DNA from: a virus
Virus record (IMG/VR): IMGVR_UViG_3300024428_000005
Coordinates: 1 to 45,908 of that record
Strand: one strand, 5' to 3'
Length of the DNA: 45,908 nt
Every line of letters begins with the position of its first letter. Position 1 is the first letter of the stretch. Position numbers and translations under genes: made by a program. Below the pieces are notes generated by a model. That model saw only the letters and a program-made list of their open reading frames with translations. It was not told the origin of the DNA and did no database searches. Of the stretch, positions 1-5,846 are shown one piece after another.

Positions 1-225
1 TCACTTGTTCAATGAATTCAAAATTCTATCAGCGTCTACACACACAAAGGATGTTGGCAATGCTTTATACTCATCTCTGATTATTCTTTTTAATCCATTA
101 CGATTTTCAACATAAAAATTTTCACAATCTTTTTCAGTCTTGAAAAGAAACTCAAAGACATGAACATCTTCCAACACAACTGCTGTTGTTGGTATGCTAA
201 AAAATGCTATCAATACCCACGACAT
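1..225 (-). CDS. Small protein with N-terminal hydrophobic segment
   Basis: I do not recognise this 74-residue protein. Residues 3-18 are hydrophobic and could be a signal peptide or membrane anchor. The rest is charged and has cysteines near residues 34 and 62, which could pair if exported. The TGA stop lies at the window edge, so the gene is complete. Its ATG overlaps the TAA of the preceding gene (TAATG), which implies translational coupling in the leftward early operon. A small exported or inner-membrane accessory protein is the most I would infer. Confidence 0.6.
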   Translation of the reverse strand: MSWVLIAFFSIPTTAVVLEDVHVFEFLFKTEKDCENFYVENRNGLKRIIRDEYKALPTSFVCVDADRILNSLNK

Positions 226-422
226 TATAGTTCTCCGTCATAGTGCATATCAATTATCTCAGCAATCTTAGTTGTTAAAAATTCATATATTTTTAATTCA
301 TTTAAATCTGCACTCTTATACTCAGCCATTGCTTCTTCAACAAACTTATCAAAAGTTTTCTCAGAAATCTTAGCCGACACCTCATTCATCATGGCAAATT
401 GTTCGCCAATATCTTTACTCAT
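225..422 (-). CDS. Hypothetical early protein
   Basis: Unrecognised 65-residue, mostly helical and acidic protein (many Glu, Ala, Ile, Lys), with no cysteine or membrane segment. A strong Shine-Dalgarno (AGGAGG on the minus strand) sits just before the ATG at 422. It is the second-last gene of the leftward operon and overlaps the next gene by one base. It could be a small host-interacting early protein, but nothing in the sequence names a target. Confidence 0.65.
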   Translation of the reverse strand: MSKDIGEQFAMMNEVSAKISEKTFDKFVEEAMAEYKSADLNELKIYEFLTTKIAEIIDMHYDGEL

Positions 423-471
423 ATCTCCTCCTAAATTCTGTTATCTTCTGTGATATTATCTTAACTTCCAT
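415..471 (-). CDS. Possible 18-residue leader ORF
   Basis: A tiny reading frame starts at an ATG with AGGAG six bases upstream and ends inside the start of the next gene. That next gene's Shine-Dalgarno is encoded by its Arg-Arg-Arg codons. Such an ORF could couple translation of the following gene. The length is too short to judge coding potential, so this is tentative. Confidence 0.2.
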   Translation of the reverse strand: MEVKIISQKITEFRRRYE

Positions 472-485
472 TTACTTTCTCCTGT

Positions 486-785
486 TTAAACAACTTCTTC
501 ATCAGCGTAAGTGTCGGGAAAAAGTTCATCTTCGTCTATTGGATTCCAGTCTTCATCAAGATAAGAGTCCATTGATGACCACTTCCAATCTGTATTATCT
601 AACTCAGGCGTTATTTGTTTTGAAATAAACGTGCCATCTCTTAAGTGAATATGTAGTGTAACCCACTTACCTACTTCAACCTTTTCAATATCTTCAAGTT
701 CAAAGCCTTCGCTTTCAGCAATGGCTTCAATATCCCATGAAAGGGTAGTGTCATACTTTGCTTCTACATATCTAACATCTGTCAT
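486..785 (-). CDS. Very acidic small protein (possible DNA mimic)
   Basis: This 99-residue protein has about 28 Asp/Glu against 7 Lys/Arg, so a net charge near -21 and a very low pI. Aromatic residues (Trp, Tyr, Phe) are spread through it. I do not recognise a family. The composition and its place among early genes with an ArdA homologue suggest a DNA-mimic inhibitor of the Ocr/ArdA kind, but that rests on charge and context alone. The palindrome GTTTAAAC lies between a GAGG ribosome binding site and the ATG. A second copy overlaps the TAA stop. Confidence 0.65.
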   Translation of the reverse strand: MTDVRYVEAKYDTTLSWDIEAIAESEGFELEDIEKVEVGKWVTLHIHLRDGTFISKQITPELDNTDWKWSSMDSYLDEDWNPIDEDELFPDTYADEEVV

Positions 786-787
786 GT

Positions 788-973
788 TTAAACACCTCTT
801 AAATTAAACATATCTTCGGCAACTGCTTCTCGCAATTCAACCTCGTTAAGTCTTGTTACTTCTTCTTGAGAATGTAAATTACTCAATAAGAATTCTCTTA
901 CTTCTTCTAAAGACATTTGTTCTACTGCTTCCCAAACATCTTCCCATACTCTGTCATTTACTTCGTGGCTCAT
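788..973 (-). CDS. Hypothetical acidic helical protein
   Basis: Unrecognised 61-residue protein rich in Glu, Val and Leu, probably all helix with amphipathic periodicity (residues 8-30 and 38-56). No cysteine or transmembrane segment. It follows the 81-residue coiled-coil-like gene with almost no spacer (its ATG overlaps that gene's stop region) and precedes the acidic 99-residue gene, so it belongs to the same leftward unit. Its function is unknown. Confidence 0.6.
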   Translation of the reverse strand: MSHEVNDRVWEDVWEAVEQMSLEEVREFLLSNLHSQEEVTRLNEVELREAVAEDMFNLRGV

Positions 974-974
974 A

Positions 975-1220
975 CTATTCCTCCAATGCTTCTAGTCTTG
1001 TGATTACATCTGCCATTTCATTATTGACCAGTTCTTCTACTTGGCTTTCCATATCATAGAAGTTAGGTCTGTCATTTAGTTCGTATTCATTAGACTCTGA
1101 TAACTCTTTAACTTCTTGTAGTAATTCTTCAAGTTGTTCTATTTCAGTAACAACTCTATCGTCTATATAGTCATCAAGTTTAATTAACTTTCTTAAAAAG
1201 TTAGCTATTTTTTGTTTCAT
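975..1220 (-). CDS. Hypothetical coiled-coil protein
   Basis: Unrecognised 81-residue protein with a short basic N-terminus (residues 1-14) and a long acidic helix rich in Glu and Leu, consistent with a coiled coil. The ATG at 1220 is preceded by GGAG nine bases upstream, inside the conserved leader made of a hairpin and GTTTAAAC. It is the first gene after the promoter at 1281-1309, so it and the genes to its left probably form one transcript under the IR-containing promoter. No function can be assigned. Confidence 0.65.
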   Translation of the reverse strand: MKQKIANFLRKLIKLDDYIDDRVVTEIEQLEELLQEVKELSESNEYELNDRPNFYDMESQVEELVNNEMADVITRLEALEE

Positions 1221-1263
1221 TTATACTCCGTTTAAACACCTTGCTTTTAAATAGGTAGCAAGG
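1221..1263 (-). promoter_or_regulatory. 5' leader element: hairpin, GTTTAAAC, SD
   Basis: On the minus strand a 7-bp stem (CCTTGCT/AGCAAGG, loop ACCTATTTAAA) is followed by one base, then GTTTAAAC, then GGAGTATAA and the ATG at 1220. The leader at 3236-3282 has the identical loop but compensated stem changes, which supports an RNA structure. The loop TTTAAA can pair with the TTTAAA core of GTTTAAAC, giving a possible pseudoknot beside the ribosome binding site. Translational control is inferred. Confidence 0.6.
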
Positions 1264-1280
1264 CTTGACCTATTGAAACT

Positions 1281-1328
1281 ATTATAACATAGTTTAAATT
1301 CTTTTTGTAGCATAAGCATATAGCTTAT
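1281..1328 (-). promoter_or_regulatory. Minus-strand promoter with inverted-repeat operator
   Basis: The -10 is TATAAT (1286-1281) extended by TGT, and the -35 is TACAAA (1309-1304) with a 17-bp spacer. Two base pairs upstream of the -35 lies the inverted repeat ATAAGC-ATATA-GCTTAT (1312-1328). The promoter at 1838-1885 has the same architecture and spacing. A phage or host activator or repressor binding the repeat is inferred. It would drive the genes from 1220 leftward. Confidence 0.6.
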
Positions 1329-1334
1329 AGTTAT

Positions 1335-1832
1335 AAAACAAATCAAGAGTTAAATAAATATCTCAGCTTCTTTGATTGGCTTCGTGCTACTAAGAGTTTC
1401 GAGTTTGAGTCAAGTATTTAAACTGCCTCTTGTTTCCTACGTGCAACGTTGGTATGCCGTTACACTCTCCTTTCACTAGGCTGTTAACCTAATCTATTTA
1501 ACTCTCGAAGAGTAGCAGTTTCTTATACGCTTTCAAGGTGGTTTCAAGTCCTGCTAACTTTGCACCCGATTACCCACTTATTTAATTTAGGTATCACGCC
1601 CACCGAAGTCCAAGCCGTGTCGTTTAAACGTTACACGTTGTCGACTAATCGGAAGTCTTATATCGCCTTTCGGTCTTGCAACTAGACTAGAGGTGTCTTC
1701 ATTATCCCGAGTATCTTGGCTAGAAACTATCCACCTTTTGCGAGGCTTCGCTACAGTCATCTCTCAGGGTCATCGAATGTTTTACACATAACTTCCCGTG
1801 GTTTTTCTATGAAGCATTGCCTCATAGTTATG
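1335..1832 (-). ncRNA. Large structured non-coding RNA candidate (~500 nt)
   Basis: This stretch has no credible ORF and is visibly richer in G+C than its neighbours. A promoter at 1838-1866 points into it. The minus-strand transcript begins with a stem ACATAA (1833-1828)/TTATGT (1791-1786) enclosing a 9-bp hairpin (1827-1807). Other helices I can draw are GCGA/TCGC (1751-1740), CGTGT/ACACG (1637-1616), the long-range CCGATTA (1652-1646)/TAATCGG (1572-1566), an 8-bp hairpin GTGTAACG/CGTTGCAC (1465-1441), and a long-range pair TGCTACT (1517-1511)/AGTAGCA (1391-1385) extended by TTCGAG/CTCGAA. A weak terminator-like stem (1377-1341) with a T-rich tail closes it. Size, phage context and ornate folding recall GOLLD, ROOL and related giant phage RNAs, but I cannot match it to any known family. 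Confidence 0.65.
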
Positions 1833-1837
1833 TAATA

Positions 1838-1885
1838 ATTATATCAAACTTTTTATTGTTTGTGTAGAATAAGTATATAACTTAT
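1838..1885 (-). promoter_or_regulatory. Promoter and operator of the large RNA
   Basis: Extended -10 TGATATAAT (1846-1838), 17-bp spacer and -35 TACACA (1866-1861). The inverted repeat ATAAGT-ATATA-ACTTAT (1869-1885) begins two base pairs upstream of the -35. The start point would be near 1831, where the structured RNA begins. The repeat is a covarying copy of the one at 1312-1328 (C/G pair replaced by T/A), so symmetry rather than exact sequence is conserved. This suits a dimeric regulator or a transcript hairpin. Confidence 0.65.
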
Positions 1886-1887
1886 AG

Positions 1888-2250
1888 TTATATAAACTCT
1901 ACTTGTCTTTCATACTTTTTACTAGCAGTCTTCACTTGCTTTTCTAAGTCAATAGAATAATCATAAAGCTTTTCAACTCCATCATTCCAATTTGTCCAGC
2001 CTAAAAATCCAACACAACATTCGTCTAAATCTCTATGCTCATCTTGTAATGACATATCATAGATGTATACTTTACAATCATCAAAAGCATTGACACCTTT
2101 ATATTTATCTCCTGCCTTTTGGTTAGCACACTTACTTAAATCTCTGGTAAGTTCAACTGCTATATCTCCGTAGCATTCTATTGTGTAATGGTAGTTTCTA
2201 TTCTTTAAAATTTCTCCCATTAAAAATCTAATGTATGGTTTTGCTATCAT
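1888..2250 (-). CDS. Hypothetical early protein
   Basis: Unrecognised 120-residue soluble protein. It has a basic C-terminal third (residues 103-116), several Tyr, and four cysteines including a Cys-Cys pair around residue 78, but no CxxC zinc motif. The ATG at 2250 is preceded by GGGAGTATAAATT, the same ribosome-binding segment used by the neighbouring genes; here it also contains the stop codon of the upstream 34-residue gene. It is the last gene before the large RNA. Confidence 0.65.
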   Translation of the reverse strand: MIAKPYIRFLMGEILKNRNYHYTIECYGDIAVELTRDLSKCANQKAGDKYKGVNAFDDCKVYIYDMSLQDEHRDLDECCVGFLGWTNWNDGVEKLYDYSIDLEKQVKTASKKYERQVEFI

Positions 2251-2253
2251 AAT

Positions 2254-2358
2254 TTATACTCCCGCTATATGCATTGCTATTATAAAAAATATCGGTACTG
2301 GTAAAGCTACCGACATAACCAAAATAAAATCTTTGTTTTGTACTATCCAATCTCTCAT
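2254..2358 (-). CDS. Tiny single-span membrane protein
   Basis: A 34-residue ORF starts with ATG preceded by GTTTAAAC and GGAGTAAAAATT, matching the leaders of adjacent genes. Residues 10-32 are strongly hydrophobic with a Pro-x-Pro kink, so a single transmembrane helix is likely. The TAA stop sits inside the ribosome binding site of the next gene, so the two are tightly coupled. The shared leader is the main evidence that this small gene is real. Function unknown. Confidence 0.6.
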   Translation of the reverse strand: MRDWIVQNKDFILVMSVALPVPIFFIIAMHIAGV

Positions 2359-2380
2359 AATTTTTACTCCGTTTAAACAG
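2359..2380 (-). promoter_or_regulatory. GTTTAAAC-SD leader
   Basis: GTTTAAAC (2371-2378) is followed on the minus strand by GGAGTAAAAATT and the ATG at 2358. The bases just upstream (AAGACT) are shared with the leader of the ardA-like gene at 2887-2910, so the two intergenic leaders are near-identical over almost 30 bases. Confidence 0.55.
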
Positions 2381-2382
2381 TC

Positions 2383-2886
2383 TTAACAATTACTAAAAAC
2401 TGCTACATTATAATCTGATACATCACATACCATGTAATCATATTCTAAATCTCTAGCATGGCTTTCGTAATCAAAATAATTTTTAAGAAAATCATCTTTA
2501 TCTTGAAGCTGTTCGTCTGCCCATTCGTCTGCATATTCTTGAAAGCTACCGTAAGTACCTACATAATTTTCTTCTGCGTTAATTATTAAATCAGTATCTA
2601 ATTCTTCGCCAGTATATTCTGCGTAAGCTAGGATAACTTCATCATCTACCCAACTATCTTTTAAAGCTTGGCAAAAATAATAAAGCTCTTTAAAGTCTGG
2701 ATACTCATTGCTCATATTAGTGCCGTCATAGTCATGTACGGCTACCTCATCAGCGTATTCAGTGGCGACTTGGATAGCATTATTAAACTTTTCAAAGCTT
2801 AGATAATCTGTGGGAGTTATCCAATCTCCAACCATTCTACCCTGATTATATGCTTCTAAAGAAGCTACATATATTTTTATTGTCAT
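2383..2886 (-). CDS. ardA: ArdA-like antirestriction protein
   Basis: 167 residues, the usual ArdA length. ArdA proteins mimic bent B-DNA with a line of acidic side chains and block type I restriction-modification enzymes in the cytoplasm. Visible family signatures are the N-terminal IYVASLEAYNQGR (residues 5-17), the AVHDYDG segment (about 49-55), the YVGTYGSFQEYADE region (about 108-121) and the FDYESHARDLE segment (about 138-148). The protein is very acidic, as the mimic fold requires. It has a GTTTAAAC-GGAG leader and lies in the early arm, so it would be made soon after entry, when incoming DNA is still open to restriction. Confidence 0.87.
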   Translation of the reverse strand: MTIKIYVASLEAYNQGRMVGDWITPTDYLSFEKFNNAIQVATEYADEVAVHDYDGTNMSNEYPDFKELYYFCQALKDSWVDDEVILAYAEYTGEELDTDLIINAEENYVGTYGSFQEYADEWADEQLQDKDDFLKNYFDYESHARDLEYDYMVCDVSDYNVAVFSNC

Positions 2887-2910
2887 AATTTATACTCCGT
2901 TTAAACAGTC
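2887..2910 (-). promoter_or_regulatory. GTTTAAAC-SD leader of ardA-like gene
   Basis: GTTTAAAC (2899-2906), then GGAGTATAAATT, then the ATG at 2886 on the minus strand. It is one of the best-conserved members of the leader set at 1220, 2358, 2886 and 3235. Confidence 0.55.
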
Positions 2911-2911
2911 T

Positions 2912-3235
2912 TTAATTTTTCCAAAGCTTTTCTTTCTTCAAAAGCTTTTTAACTTTCTTGTTAAAGTTTTTAGTTGGCTTAGTGATATATCTTCGCAAAT
3001 CTTTCTTTGCTAATCTTACATGATAAGGAATAATATTCTCATCAGTAAAGAAGTAAAAGCTGTCAAAGTAATCAGTAATTGCTCCATTAATTTCAACATC
3101 TTTTATCATTGCTACTAACTTATTGCCACTAAAAATAAAGTTAATACCATGCTCAAAATAAGCTCTATAGTTTCTAGTATCGTGAGGTAAAAACCCCCCG
3201 CCCTCAAGTTTAATGTTATCTTTTGTTATTGTCAT
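2912..3235 (-). CDS. Hypothetical basic-tailed early protein
   Basis: Unrecognised 107-residue protein. Residues 1-75 look like a compact alpha/beta domain with many aromatics; residues 76-107 are strongly basic (Lys/Arg clusters), consistent with nucleic-acid or membrane-surface binding. The ATG at 3235 follows the second copy of the hairpin and GTTTAAAC leader. It lies between the SprT-like and ArdA-like genes. No family or function can be assigned. Confidence 0.65.
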   Translation of the reverse strand: MTITKDNIKLEGGGFLPHDTRNYRAYFEHGINFIFSGNKLVAMIKDVEINGAITDYFDSFYFFTDENIIPYHVRLAKKDLRRYITKPTKNFNKKVKKLLKKEKLWKN

Positions 3236-3282
3236 AATTTTATATTCCGTTTAAACGCCCTGTTTTTAAATAGGTAACAGGG
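3236..3282 (-). promoter_or_regulatory. 5' leader element: covarying hairpin, GTTTAAAC, SD
   Basis: Minus-strand stem CCCTGTT/AACAGGG with loop ACCTATTTAAA, one base, GTTTAAAC (3249-3256), then GGAATATAAAATT and the ATG at 3235. Compared with 1221-1263, the 11-nt loop is identical and the stem differs at two positions, both compensated on the opposite arm. Both copies also share the AGGTYAAG segment before the stem. No promoter is evident between this leader and the upstream gene, so it probably acts within a polycistronic RNA. Confidence 0.6.
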
Positions 3283-3296
3283 CTTAACCTTTTAAC

Positions 3297-3911
3297 TTAA
3301 CAATCTATTTCTAAACTATCACTCCCACAACCATTGCAAATAGTGTTTGCCATCATACCTATATTTTTTCTGCTTGTTCGGTATGAAAAGTTACACTCAG
3401 TACAAGATACTTTTAGCATTCTGGTGCTTTGCTTCTTGCGTTTGTGTATCTGCAATTCATTATGCGGGTACAGTCCAATATCTTTTACAATATCTTTTAT
3501 AGTTTGCGTTAACTCATCTCCTGCACAAGCATAACGCATTTGACTCGAGCCGTTTAAACCTACCGCTAAACAGATTTTTCTAAACCCTGCACCGTGTCCG
3601 CTTTTGTTATCATCAACCGCATGAACTAATTCATGGGCTAAAGTGTCAATGACTTGTTCGCTATCGTCAACCGTTGGCATAATCATAATCTCGTTGATGT
3701 TTGCCTTGCTCCAACTTCTTGGCACACATTGCCCTAGCGTTTTCTTATTTTTATCAGCCGTACCCAATGCCCATGAGCAAGATATTTTAACTTCTGGGAT
3801 TTCATATCCCGACTGTTTAAACACTCTCTCGTTGAGTTCGTCTTTTGCCTTTTGTAAATACTCCTCACGTGTACCGTTGAAAAGTTTATTTTGTATCATT
3901 AAGTTCTGCAT
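3297..3911 (-). CDS. SprT-like zinc metalloprotease
   Basis: 204 residues with the SprT/Spartan arrangement. The metalloprotease motif HELVH is at residues 93-97, with a further histidine in the GHG segment (H106) as probable third zinc ligand. A C-terminal zinc ribbon has two CxxC pairs (CTEC and CNGC, about residues 169-198). Family members cleave DNA-bound or crosslinked proteins; bacterial SprT roles are poorly defined. The ATG at 3911 has GGAG five bases upstream, and that sets the start. In this early arm it could remove host proteins from DNA or mature phage proteins, which is inference. Confidence 0.82.
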   Translation of the reverse strand: MQNLMIQNKLFNGTREEYLQKAKDELNERVFKQSGYEIPEVKISCSWALGTADKNKKTLGQCVPRSWSKANINEIMIMPTVDDSEQVIDTLAHELVHAVDDNKSGHGAGFRKICLAVGLNGSSQMRYACAGDELTQTIKDIVKDIGLYPHNELQIHKRKKQSTRMLKVSCTECNFSYRTSRKNIGMMANTICNGCGSDSLEIDC

Positions 3912-3956
3912 AAATGCTCCGTTTGTTAAGTTATTTGTTAAGTGTATAGGTTTTTT

Positions 3957-3982
3957 AAAGTTAGTCCATACTTCCTAACTTT
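3957..3982. other. 8-bp hairpin upstream of the SprT-like gene
   Basis: AAAGTTAG (3957-3964) and CTAACTTT (3975-3982) flank a 10-base loop. On the plus strand a T-run follows, so it would terminate rightward transcription; on the minus strand it would lie in the 5' leader of the SprT-like gene. No rightward gene needs a terminator here, so a leader hairpin or processing site is equally likely. Confidence 0.35.
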
Positions 3983-3993
3983 TTGTTATATGC

Positions 3994-4077
3994 TTATTCC
4001 TCCCCGTCTTGATATTTTTTTTCAATTAAAAATACTACTGTCATAGAAAATATAAAAAGAAATATAAACTCTAGCAT
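3994..4077 (-). CDS. Tiny single-span membrane protein (27 aa)
   Basis: A short ORF starting at 4077, a few bases after the stop of the preceding gene, with a G-rich segment (GGGGG) upstream. Residues 3-18 are almost entirely hydrophobic and residues 19-27 charged, a typical one-helix micro-membrane protein. Length prevents any firm call. It is one of at least four such micro-proteins in this window. Confidence 0.35.
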   Translation of the reverse strand: MLEFIFLFIFSMTVVFLIEKKYQDGEE

Positions 4078-4079
4078 TT

Positions 4080-4400
4080 TTAACCCCCGTTCCTAACTAA
4101 GTTTCCATCACAATTGTGAACCATTGAACGCTTAACTTTTGCCGTTACTTGGTTCTGTCTTTCAGCTTTTACTATTGTACCTTTTCCGTTGATGGCTTGT
4201 CCGATGTTGTTCTCACGTCTAACCTTTTCTAAGTTTATGAAACCTTTGAAAGTCAATCTCATTTCTTCGTTATGATTTCCTGCCCTAACTTTAAACCTAT
4301 CAATAGTTCCAGTCGCTTTGTGCATAACAATGAAATAACCATTGTTTTTAAGTACATCAAATTCCCTAGCATTATATTTTAGTTTATTGATTGTAGCCAT
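4080..4400 (-). CDS. Hypothetical basic protein
   Basis: Unrecognised 106-residue basic protein with a beta-rich N-terminal half and a Lys/Arg-rich C-terminal half, suggestive of nucleic-acid binding but without a nameable motif. A run of six G precedes the ATG at 4400 and probably serves as ribosome binding site. It directly follows the 76-residue coiled-coil gene with one base between, so the two form the start of the leftward operon. Confidence 0.6.
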   Translation of the reverse strand: MATINKLKYNAREFDVLKNNGYFIVMHKATGTIDRFKVRAGNHNEEMRLTFKGFINLEKVRRENNIGQAINGKGTIVKAERQNQVTAKVKRSMVHNCDGNLVRNGG

Positions 4401-4401
4401 A

Positions 4402-4632
4402 TTATTTGCCCCCCTGTAATAATTTTAATTCTTTTTCTAAAGCTTCTATTTCTCCCCCAACTCTAAGGACAGCATAGATTCTATTCTGAAGCTTATCAAC
4501 ATTTTCTTTGCTTGAATCTTCTTGCATTCTTTTAACATCTTTATTGAATACTTTAGAAGCCATTCTCAAGTCAGTTTCAAGAATCAGTATAGACTCTTTA
4601 AGTGCTGTGATTTTCATTTTTTTTGTCGCCAT
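4402..4632 (-). CDS. Hypothetical coiled-coil protein, first leftward gene
   Basis: 76 residues from the ATG at 4632, chosen because ACGGAG lies eight bases upstream; the frame is open further upstream but without a binding site. The protein is a predicted long helix with Lys/Glu/Leu periodicity and no cysteines. It is the first gene downstream of the leftward promoter at 5334-5362, separated from it by the origin-like region. A GTTTAAAC copy lies about 30 bases upstream (4662-4669). Function unknown. Confidence 0.6.
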   Translation of the reverse strand: MATKKMKITALKESILILETDLRMASKVFNKDVKRMQEDSSKENVDKLQNRIYAVLRVGGEIEALEKELKLLQGGK

Positions 4633-4739
4633 AGTAAAAACTCCGTAAATTATGGAAACAAGTTTAAACCATAGGTTTTGAAAGCACAATCAAAAAGTGA
4701 ATAAATTAGTAAATCCAAATATCCTTAGATTAAAAAGTT

Positions 4740-5220
4740 ATATAGCTTATAAAGTTCTTGACATTCACAGAACCGTTGAAAAGTTTTATTTCGATATAAA
4801 CCTTAACAAATATAAAACGGCTCTTAGAATGGTTCTATTTAGTTCGGGTAGTTTAAACGCTTTCAAAGTTTGTGAAGTAGCCATAGCCCCTTATAAAGTG
4901 TTGAAAAGTAAACTCTATAAACTTTACAAGGTTTCTGATATTTCATTAACTAGATTTTATAAACTTTATAAAGTTTTCAAAGCTTAGAAAGGTTTTATAA
5001 AGTTCACAAAGATTTCACATAACTCACTTGCAAAACTTTATAAAGTGTGATAGGGAAATCCTTATTCCTAAAGGTTATAAGACTTGCAAAGTTTGAGAAG
5101 TTTAGTTATAAGGGGGTGGGCAGGATGTACATGGGGGGAGGGGGTATATATATATAAAACTCATACATTTCTACCCAGTTAAGGTATTAACCAGATGCCC
5201 TAAACTTTATAAAGCTTTAT
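4740..5220. repeat. AT-rich iteron region, possible replication origin
   Basis: No gene is credible from 4633 to 5426. The segment is packed with variants of CTTTATAAAG: a 16-bp perfect palindrome (AAACTTTATAAAGTTT, 4961-4976), ACTTTATAAAGT (5035-5046), CTTTATAAAG (5205-5214), and half-sites TATAAAG near 4753, 4892 and 4996. Clustered palindromic iterons between divergent arms suit an origin or a regulator-binding array. A plus-strand frame here encodes only the repeats (Tyr-Lys-Leu-Tyr-Lys-Val units) and I treat it as spurious. Confidence 0.5.
5112..5144 (+). other. G-tract cluster (possible G-quadruplex)
   Basis: Four guanine tracts (GGGGG, GGG, GGGGGG, GGGGG) in 33 bases, with loops of 1, 12 and 1 nt, followed at once by a (TA)n run. 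This is exceptional in DNA of about 33 percent G+C. It could fold as a G-quadruplex on the plus strand and, with the adjacent TA tract, mark a melting or replication-start site. Confidence 0.5.
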
Positions 5221-5242
5221 AATAAAACTAACACTAATTATA

Positions 5243-5327
5243 TAATAAAAAACCCTGTACGTTGTACAAGGTTTTAAAAGCTCTATAGGGATATGTTATT
5301 CTATAGGTATGCACCGGGGTGGCATAC
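5243..5327 (-). ncRNA. Short terminated leader / small RNA
   Basis: Starting about 7 bases after the leftward -10, the transcript opens with a hairpin GTATGC/GCATAC (5327-5307). Two self-complementary CTATAG boxes follow (5306-5301 and 5288-5283). It then reaches a strong hairpin AAAACC-x-TTGTAC type (5275-5249) followed by TTTTTT (5252-5247), a rho-independent terminator. So a roughly 80-nt RNA, or an attenuator upstream of the leftward operon, is expected. Readthrough would supply the genes from 4632 leftward. Confidence 0.5.
5249..5275 (-). terminator. Intrinsic terminator or attenuator, leftward
   Basis: Stem of 6 plus 5 base pairs with one mismatch and a GTT/AAC triloop; the minus-strand side runs directly into six T. 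On the plus strand the stem is followed by TTTT then A-rich sequence, so the leftward direction is the better terminator. Confidence 0.55.
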
Positions 5328-5333
5328 AAGTAT

Positions 5334-5362
5334 ATTGTACACTTTTTTTCAACGTTTGTCAA
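5334..5362 (-). promoter_or_regulatory. Leftward sigma70 promoter
   Basis: On the minus strand: TTGACA (5362-5357), a 17-bp spacer, and TACAAT (5339-5334), 11 of 12 consensus bases. The start point is predicted near 5327. It is back-to-back with the rightward promoter at 5390-5418. Confidence 0.75.
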
Positions 5363-5398
5363 GACCTTTCGTGTTTATTTTAAAATAACTTGACAAAC
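5354..5398. promoter_or_regulatory. 10-bp inverted repeat spanning both -35 boxes
   Basis: GTTTGTCAAG (5354-5363) and CTTGACAAAC (5389-5398) are perfect inverted copies 25 bases apart, and each contains the -35 of one divergent promoter. The extra conserved bases outside the hexamers suggest a shared operator through which one protein could switch both directions, although two good -35 boxes facing apart give part of the symmetry for free. Confidence 0.55.
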
Positions 5399-5418
5399 TT
5401 GCAAAGTGTCTCTATAAT
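5390..5418 (+). promoter_or_regulatory. Rightward sigma70 promoter (12/12 consensus)
   Basis: TTGACA (5390-5395), exactly 17 bp, TATAAT (5413-5418). The predicted start is at about 5425, and the ATG of the first gene is at 5427, so the mRNA would have essentially no 5' leader. It drives the packaging and structural operon. Confidence 0.85.
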
Positions 5419-5426
5419 ATTATAGT

Positions 5427-5846
5427 ATGACATACTTATCAGAAACTCGTAAGAAGAATTTAACTGAGAAACAACAAAGTTTTTTAGACAATCTAGTCGA
5501 AACTAAAGGTGACTTTAAAAAGGCTGCAGAACTTGCAGGATACTCAGGCAATCACTATCAAGTTATCAAATCACTTAAAAATGAAGTAGTTGATTTAGCC
5601 TCGGATGTACTTGCCAAGTCTGCACCGAAGGCTGCTTTTAAGTTAATCGAAATGATTGATTCTGATAGACCTGTACCTCAAGCTAGTCAGAAACTTGCAG
5701 CAGCTCAAACTATCCTTGATAGAGTGGGTGTAAGTAAGACTGACAGGGTGCAGGTTGACCACAATGTACAAGGTGGTATCTTTATACTACCTCAAAAAGA
5801 AAATGTAATAATAGAGAGTGATGAGTATGAAGATATATCTGACTGA
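5427..5846 (+). CDS. terS: Terminase small subunit (probable)
   Basis: 139-residue protein, first gene of the rightward operon and a few genes before the large terminase. Residues 11-55 resemble the helix-turn-helix of small terminases (an LTEKQQSFLDNLVET segment, then KKAAELAGYSG). A long helical segment follows (60-105) and a short beta/acidic C-terminus. Small terminases bind the packaging site and regulate the motor. The start is the only ATG in frame near the promoter; no Shine-Dalgarno is possible, because the promoter -10 ends eight bases upstream. Confidence 0.7.
   Translation: MTYLSETRKKNLTEKQQSFLDNLVETKGDFKKAAELAGYSGNHYQVIKSLKNEVVDLASDVLAKSAPKAAFKLIEMIDSDRPVPQASQKLAAAQTILDRVGVSKTDRVQVDHNVQGGIFILPQKENVIIESDEYEDISD

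Follow-up and report, generated by a model that had tools for sequence, protein, structure and literature searches.

The window, that is, the whole stretch of DNA analysed here, is a 45,908-base virus record (G000) that is classed as linear. A minus-strand arm at positions 1-4700 carries the antirestriction gene ArdA and an SprT-like gene (Table 1), and a minus-strand continuation at the other end of the window encodes a primase/helicase and a family A DNA polymerase. The polymerase and the terminase are nearest to those of the Pelagibacter phages HTVC115P, 103P and 104P, and the next nearest terminases are those of Roseobacter phages and HMO-2011. On these sequence relationships, the phage is assigned to the HMO-2011 type and considered a relative of the Pelagibacter phages, with a SAR11-like organism as its most likely host. 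The record ends within the helicase gene (window 1 and 45908), into which the minus-strand early arm would run on were the genome circularly permuted, and the contig is probably incomplete. Genes for a c-type cytochrome (PF00034; 39014-39454, minus strand) and an iron-sulphur scaffold protein of the NifU/IscU type (PF01592; 6896-7309, plus strand) are likely auxiliary metabolic genes. Between the two arms (4690-5430) there are repeats of the ACTTTATAAAGTTT type and, at 5275-5249, a hairpin resembling a terminator; strong promoter-like sites in divergent orientation lie at 5362 (minus) and 5390 (plus).

Between the early genes of the minus-strand arm lies a segment that very probably constitutes a non-coding structured RNA gene, read on the minus strand from about 1832 to 1335. 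An RNA gene of about 500 nt starting at a promoter with an extended -10 element had been suggested for 1335-1832 in the first-pass annotation, and the predicted transcript agrees almost exactly with this proposal, its strand being that of the surrounding early genes. The promoter includes a segment, TTTGATATAAT, that is unchanged across six aligned homologues and also occurs in L090, the seventh, and the RNA is expected to start at about 1831-1833. At the other end, a 12-bp hairpin is followed by the U-tract UUUGUUUU, which runs to 1335, and three pairs of the terminator stem have changed on both sides among the seven homologues. A consensus terminator scan of the window did not pick up this terminator, because its loop carries an insert in the window. 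The G+C content of the segment (0.43-0.45) exceeds that of the flanks on either side (0.26-0.35), as had been noted, but it is not unique in the neighbourhood, since the SprT-like gene (3501-3750) also reaches 0.43.

Table 1. Features of the RNA locus and its surroundings in the window
Feature	Position	Strand	Evidence or remark
Predicted non-coding RNA transcript, long form, about 498 nt	1335-1832	minus	Promoter and terminator at opposite ends, covariation, seven distinct homologues
Conserved RNA core, about 335 nt	1498-1832	minus	84-98% pairwise identity among seven homologues
RNA promoter, TACACA, 17 nt, extended -10 TGaTATAAT	1838-1866	minus	Sequence; conserved in homologues
Upstream promoter repeat, beginning with palindrome TATAACTnnAAGTTATA	1838-1892	minus	Before the RNA in all seven loci
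Second promoter repeat copy (TG-TTATAAT), before next gene	1281-1338	minus	Overlaps end of U-tract
Intrinsic terminator, stem 1508-1497 with 1354-1343, U-tract 1342-1335	1335-1508	minus	12 pairs in 7/7 homologues
5' hairpin CUAUGAGGC/GCUUCAUAG	1807-1827	minus	Two pairs changed on both sides
Long-range helix CCAC/GUGG, 1801-1798 with 1603-1600	1600-1801	minus	Compensatory CUAC/GUAG in L085
Long-range helix GGAAGU/ACUUCC, 1796-1791 with 1656-1651	1651-1796	minus	Invariant
Helix CCUGAG/CUCAGG, 1768-1763 with 1711-1706	1706-1768	minus	Compensatory CUUGAG/CUCAAG in L086
Palindrome stem-loop, 1637-1633 with 1620-1616	1616-1637	minus	CGUGU/ACACG, CAUGU/ACAUG, CAUGA/UCAUG, UGUGC/GCACA
Apical loop, palindrome GUUUAAAC	1622-1629	minus	Invariant in seven homologues within a variable stretch
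Helix UAGCAG/CUGCUA, 1556-1551 with 1518-1513	1513-1556	minus	Compensatory changes at two positions
Extra structured arm inside terminator loop, about 140 nt	1355-1492	minus	Window and L087 only
Leader motif GTTTAAAC before early-gene start	484-491	minus	
Leader motif GTTTAAAC before early-gene start	786-793	minus	
Leader motif GTTTAAACGGAG before early-gene start	1230-1237	minus	
Leader motif GTTTAAACGGAG before early-gene start	2371-2378	minus	
Leader motif GTTTAAACGGAG before ArdA gene	2899-2906	minus	
Leader motif GTTTAAACGGAA before early-gene start	3249-3256	minus	
Antirestriction gene ArdA	2383-2886	minus	Minus-strand arm
SprT-like gene	3297-3911	minus	Minus-strand arm

Protein and pattern searches of IMG/VR yielded the contigs L007, L086, L087, L088, L090 and L085, which together with the window itself make seven distinct homologues. 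A further IMG/VR contig, L083, ends inside the RNA, and L082 and L084, being the same contigs as L007 and L086, were not counted as distinct. The RNA measures about 375-395 nt in five of the seven, and the 498-nt length in the window is due to a variable arm in the terminator loop. A covariance model (R1) recovers the seven homologues and no convincing others; its weak hits, found in L012, L090 and L003 at E 0.13-1.7, were rejected, since each shrank to 95 nt and those in L012 and L003 shared an offset of 1.07 kb upstream of the polymerase, the site of the helicase gene. Additional pattern matches (such as L089 and the 15-mer matches) were attributed to chance by profile search, as were five matches among genome contigs. 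No more RNAs emerged from further pattern and profile searches, no match to the RNA from blastn of phage and plasmid collections, and no RNA from the first 14-16 kb of the cultured relatives HTVC115P, 103P, 104P and 033P. Within the collections searched, the family is thus a narrow one. Of 385 bacterial genomes, one (class of L146) contains a 27-nt match, which is unremarkable, since its E-value of 3e-4 applies per genome and all 385 were searched. The RNA core is better conserved than most neighbouring genes: in L090, identity is 91% for the RNA, 71% for ArdA, 79% for SprT and 70% for F0. This conservation indirectly supports the important role that had been ascribed to the RNA, but L005, a relative with a 91% identical polymerase, lives without it.

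The only notable open reading frame in the segment, which had been described as lacking any, encodes 57 aa on the same strand (1587-1760). It is open in the window, L087 and L007, but indels or stops break it in L086, L088, L085 and L090, where 10, 10, 10 and 39 residues stay open, respectively. The frame is therefore not regarded as a gene; a small protein as the product of the locus is refuted by these disruptions and retains almost no probability, and no reading frame is conserved among the homologues. A cmscan of the window against Rfam 15 at gathering score gave no RNA family match, and permissive E-values applied to the RNA region and the six homologous loci gave two chance matches to eukaryotic families, with E near 10. 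Given the lack of an Rfam match, the covarying helices and the absence of a conserved reading frame, the original proposal of a structured RNA gene, maybe of a new family, stands. With a promoter and terminator of its own, this independent non-coding RNA gene represents a new family within a known broad kind, the large structured phage RNAs.

The fold was evaluated on an alignment of the seven sequences (A2) with ten helices, amounting to 61 pairs, picked from the helix listing. The structure is 97.8% paired on this alignment, and 13 of the 61 pairs are changed on both sides, compared with 4.9±1.6 in shuffles, none of 500 reaching 13; these numbers are biased by the relatedness of the sequences, by derivation of the structure from them and by a choice of helices made partly for covariation, so individual compensations weigh more than totals. 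Sliding the helix partners by 1-3 columns leaves 35-40% pairing and 0-2 pairs changed on both sides. Many local and long-range helices had been proposed from the single sequence, and helices covary in the aligned relatives. The helix UAGCAG/CUGCUA, for instance, occurs as UAACAG/CUGUUA and UAGUAG/CUACUA, and within the extra arm, a position occupied by a short loop in the other five homologues, the hairpins GUGUAACG/CGUUGCAC and AUUAGGU/GCCUAGU each show a compensatory change in L087. The helix GGAAGU/ACUUCC is neither supported nor opposed, because it is invariant, and the pairing of the palindrome stem is lost in L085 as aligned. The helices GAUACC/GGUAUC and CCGAU/AUCGG are partly mutually exclusive. 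Long central pairings predicted by RNAalifold were set aside, as most pairs there never vary.

Four pairs vary on one side, with nine G-U cells as against a single A-C cell, which sits in the unpaired stem of L085; such variation through G-U wobbles fits an RNA made from the minus strand. Folding energy is modest: the window RNA has a z-score of -1.6 and its L007 homologue one of -1.8 (3 of 100 shuffles in either case); for the opposite strand, the values are -0.6 and -1.0, respectively. What argues for an RNA gene is the covariation together with the conserved promoter and terminator, rather than folding energy. The same observations bear on the notion that the segment is a DNA element, such as a replication origin or packaging site, that merely looks structured. 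Conservation, the lack of coding capacity, the richer G+C content and the presence of palindromes would all suit such an element; the compensatory changes, the wobble bias to one strand and a promoter and terminator in register leave it highly improbable.

In the window, a promoter repeat of 58-65 nt containing the palindrome TATAACTnnAAGTTATA lies on both sides of the RNA. The module consists of the palindrome followed by an extended -10 element and is present in one to three copies per locus (window, L007, L086, L087, L090, L088 and L085); it is possibly a site for an activator or repressor. The window copies of the module fall at 1281-1338 and 1831-1895. In L005, a single degenerate repeat occupies the same slot after ArdA, and the RNA is missing. 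This arrangement also bears on whether the segment acts in cis on the next gene, as a leader or attenuator with its terminator as a switch. The downstream genes do lie on the same strand and the RNA does end in a terminator, but a separate promoter follows directly after the terminator and the gene behind it differs between homologues. The constant downstream gene under control that characterizes a cis-regulatory leader or riboswitch is thus not found here, and a cis-acting role is considered very improbable.

The most distinctive element of the RNA is its palindromic apical loop, in which GUUUAAAC is unchanged while the stem and flanks vary. The letters flanking the palindrome pair in six of the seven homologues, as C..G or, in L088 and L090, where both have changed together, as U..A; L086 has C..A. 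The same word, written as GTTTAAAC in DNA, occurs in 17 copies in the window, against 1.9 expected from dinucleotides and 2.7 from an order-3 model, and ranks first among over-represented 8-mers in the window, L086 and L030. Strong over-representation is likewise seen in L087, L090 and L024, and the word is absent or rare in L005 and HTVC103P. Six window copies are placed immediately ahead of early-gene starts, most often in the form GTTTAAACGGAG...ATG. The word is complementary to five of 12 early leaders, the most of any 8-mer in the RNA, and shuffled RNAs reach five in 2.4% of trials, in a test that was run after the motif had been seen; the predicted loop-leader duplexes range from -7 to -13 kcal/mol. 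Hairpins occur in early-gene leaders of the window (1220-1274 and 3239-3293), L088 (1493-1550) and L090 (11152-11209). Ten of the 17 motif copies fall inside ATG-started reading frames of at least 60 aa, and because coding DNA contains many copies, spread over two frames, the motif may serve a DNA-level role apart from the RNA. The idea that the motif requires the RNA was not upheld, as L030 and L024 contain 27 and 17 copies, respectively, with no RNA seen in the stretch examined. The word may be a signal at either the DNA or the RNA level. A literature search for an RNA regulator of early leaders or for a phage GTTTAAAC motif returned nothing relevant.

It is proposed, tentatively and with somewhat more doubt than confidence in the statement as a whole, that the early arm encodes a trans-acting structured RNA that tunes early messages through loop-leader pairing. 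Since the promoter is sigma70-like and the RNA lies among early-type genes, host RNA polymerase would presumably make it early in infection. The RNA would then act in trans, its invariant loop offering a pairing surface of 8-10 nt that could engage copies of the motif adjoining the ribosome-binding site in six early mRNAs (for example, GUUUAAACGGAG...AUG) and thereby tune the translation or stability of these messages. Pairing of leaders by the GUUUAAAC loop is the leading putative mechanism, albeit a rather doubtful one when judged by itself, and it is quite unlikely that the RNA is a global controller of the phage early genes, a one-RNA, many-leaders regulon operating through GUUUAAAC words beside ribosome-binding sites. 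The invariance of the loop, the rank of its word among 8-mers and the number of complementary leaders speak for leader pairing, as does a single comparison, that with L005, which has neither the RNA nor motif enrichment. The model is weakened by the motif-rich relatives without a visible RNA and by the many coding copies.

The main rival to leader pairing is self-pairing into dimers, in which the palindromic loop would kiss that of a second copy to form an RNA-only homodimer or multimer like those of OLE, GOLLD and ROOL, serving as a scaffold or sequestering a host factor, with the leaders not being its target. In its favour, the loop is a perfect palindrome whose flanking letters also mostly pair, and changes that preserve a palindrome have been taken as support for symmetric kissing loops (PMC12286853). 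In a simple model, the isolated hairpin dimer reaches -21.2 kcal/mol compared with -4.8 kcal/mol for one hairpin, as any near-palindrome would. The co-changing flanks, observed in a sample of seven closely related homologues, fit hairpin closure or self-dimerization as well as or better than pairing with mRNA; ordinary hairpin closure, however, yields the same covariation, and dimerization leaves unexplained both the top rank of this 8-mer among the enriched words of the genome and its recurrence in early leaders. Taken together, dimer formation is itself a doubtful account. It is distinctly unlikely, in turn, that the RNA is a decoy for host takeover or anti-defence that binds a host protein or the ribosome, GUUUAAAC then arising as a side effect of a DNA or RNA motif present throughout the phage. 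Its location in the early arm close to ArdA, its gain and loss as a cassette between two promoter repeats, the long invariant stretches outside the palindrome and the occurrence of the motif in L030 and L024, where no RNA is visible, would suit a decoy, but the RNA has no likeness to 6S or other decoy RNAs in Rfam.

Pelagibacter phages and related phages rank among the most abundant marine viruses, and no described structured RNA of this size was found for them. The gene anatomy of the family is clear, a close relative supplies an empty site for comparison, and the palindromic loop gives a testable handle. If the loop pairs with early leaders, the phage would run an early regulon with one RNA, a link that would be new; if it drives dimers, the family would be an addition to the short list of natural RNA-only assemblies.

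The parallel with GOLLD and ROOL that was drawn at first holds in general character, and kinship is unsupported, as the RNA has no Rfam match. Like these "ornate" RNAs of phages and prophages, it is phage-encoded, large for a phage non-coding RNA and composed of many helices, and its loop, as read from the sequence, would be capable of symmetric kissing as theirs are (PMC12286853). In contrast, it spans 375-498 nt whereas many GOLLD RNAs exceed 800 nt, its known distribution is far narrower, and no tRNA genes were detected in the window by ARAGORN, while GOLLD and ROOL are commonly, though not by strict definition, located near such genes. The OLE RNA dimer likewise involves a palindromic kissing loop (PMC12286853) and resembles the present RNA in being a structured RNA with such a palindrome, here predicted from sequence; the present RNA differs in being phage-borne, without an Rfam match and with no partner gene seen. 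The leader hairpins of L088 and L090, which contain GTTTAAAC, resemble the DUF2815 RNA (RF03084) at 32 bits, below the cut-off of 41.2, a likeness that concerns mRNA leaders and not the structured RNA at 1335-1832. The closest analogue of the motif is provided by the Start-Associated Sequences of Cluster K mycobacteriophages, a short word just upstream of many phage gene start codons (PMC3203893). The window motif is also a short word ahead of several gene starts; however, the Start-Associated Sequence is an asymmetric 13-mer, whereas the window motif is a symmetric 8-mer that is found in an RNA loop and in coding DNA as well.
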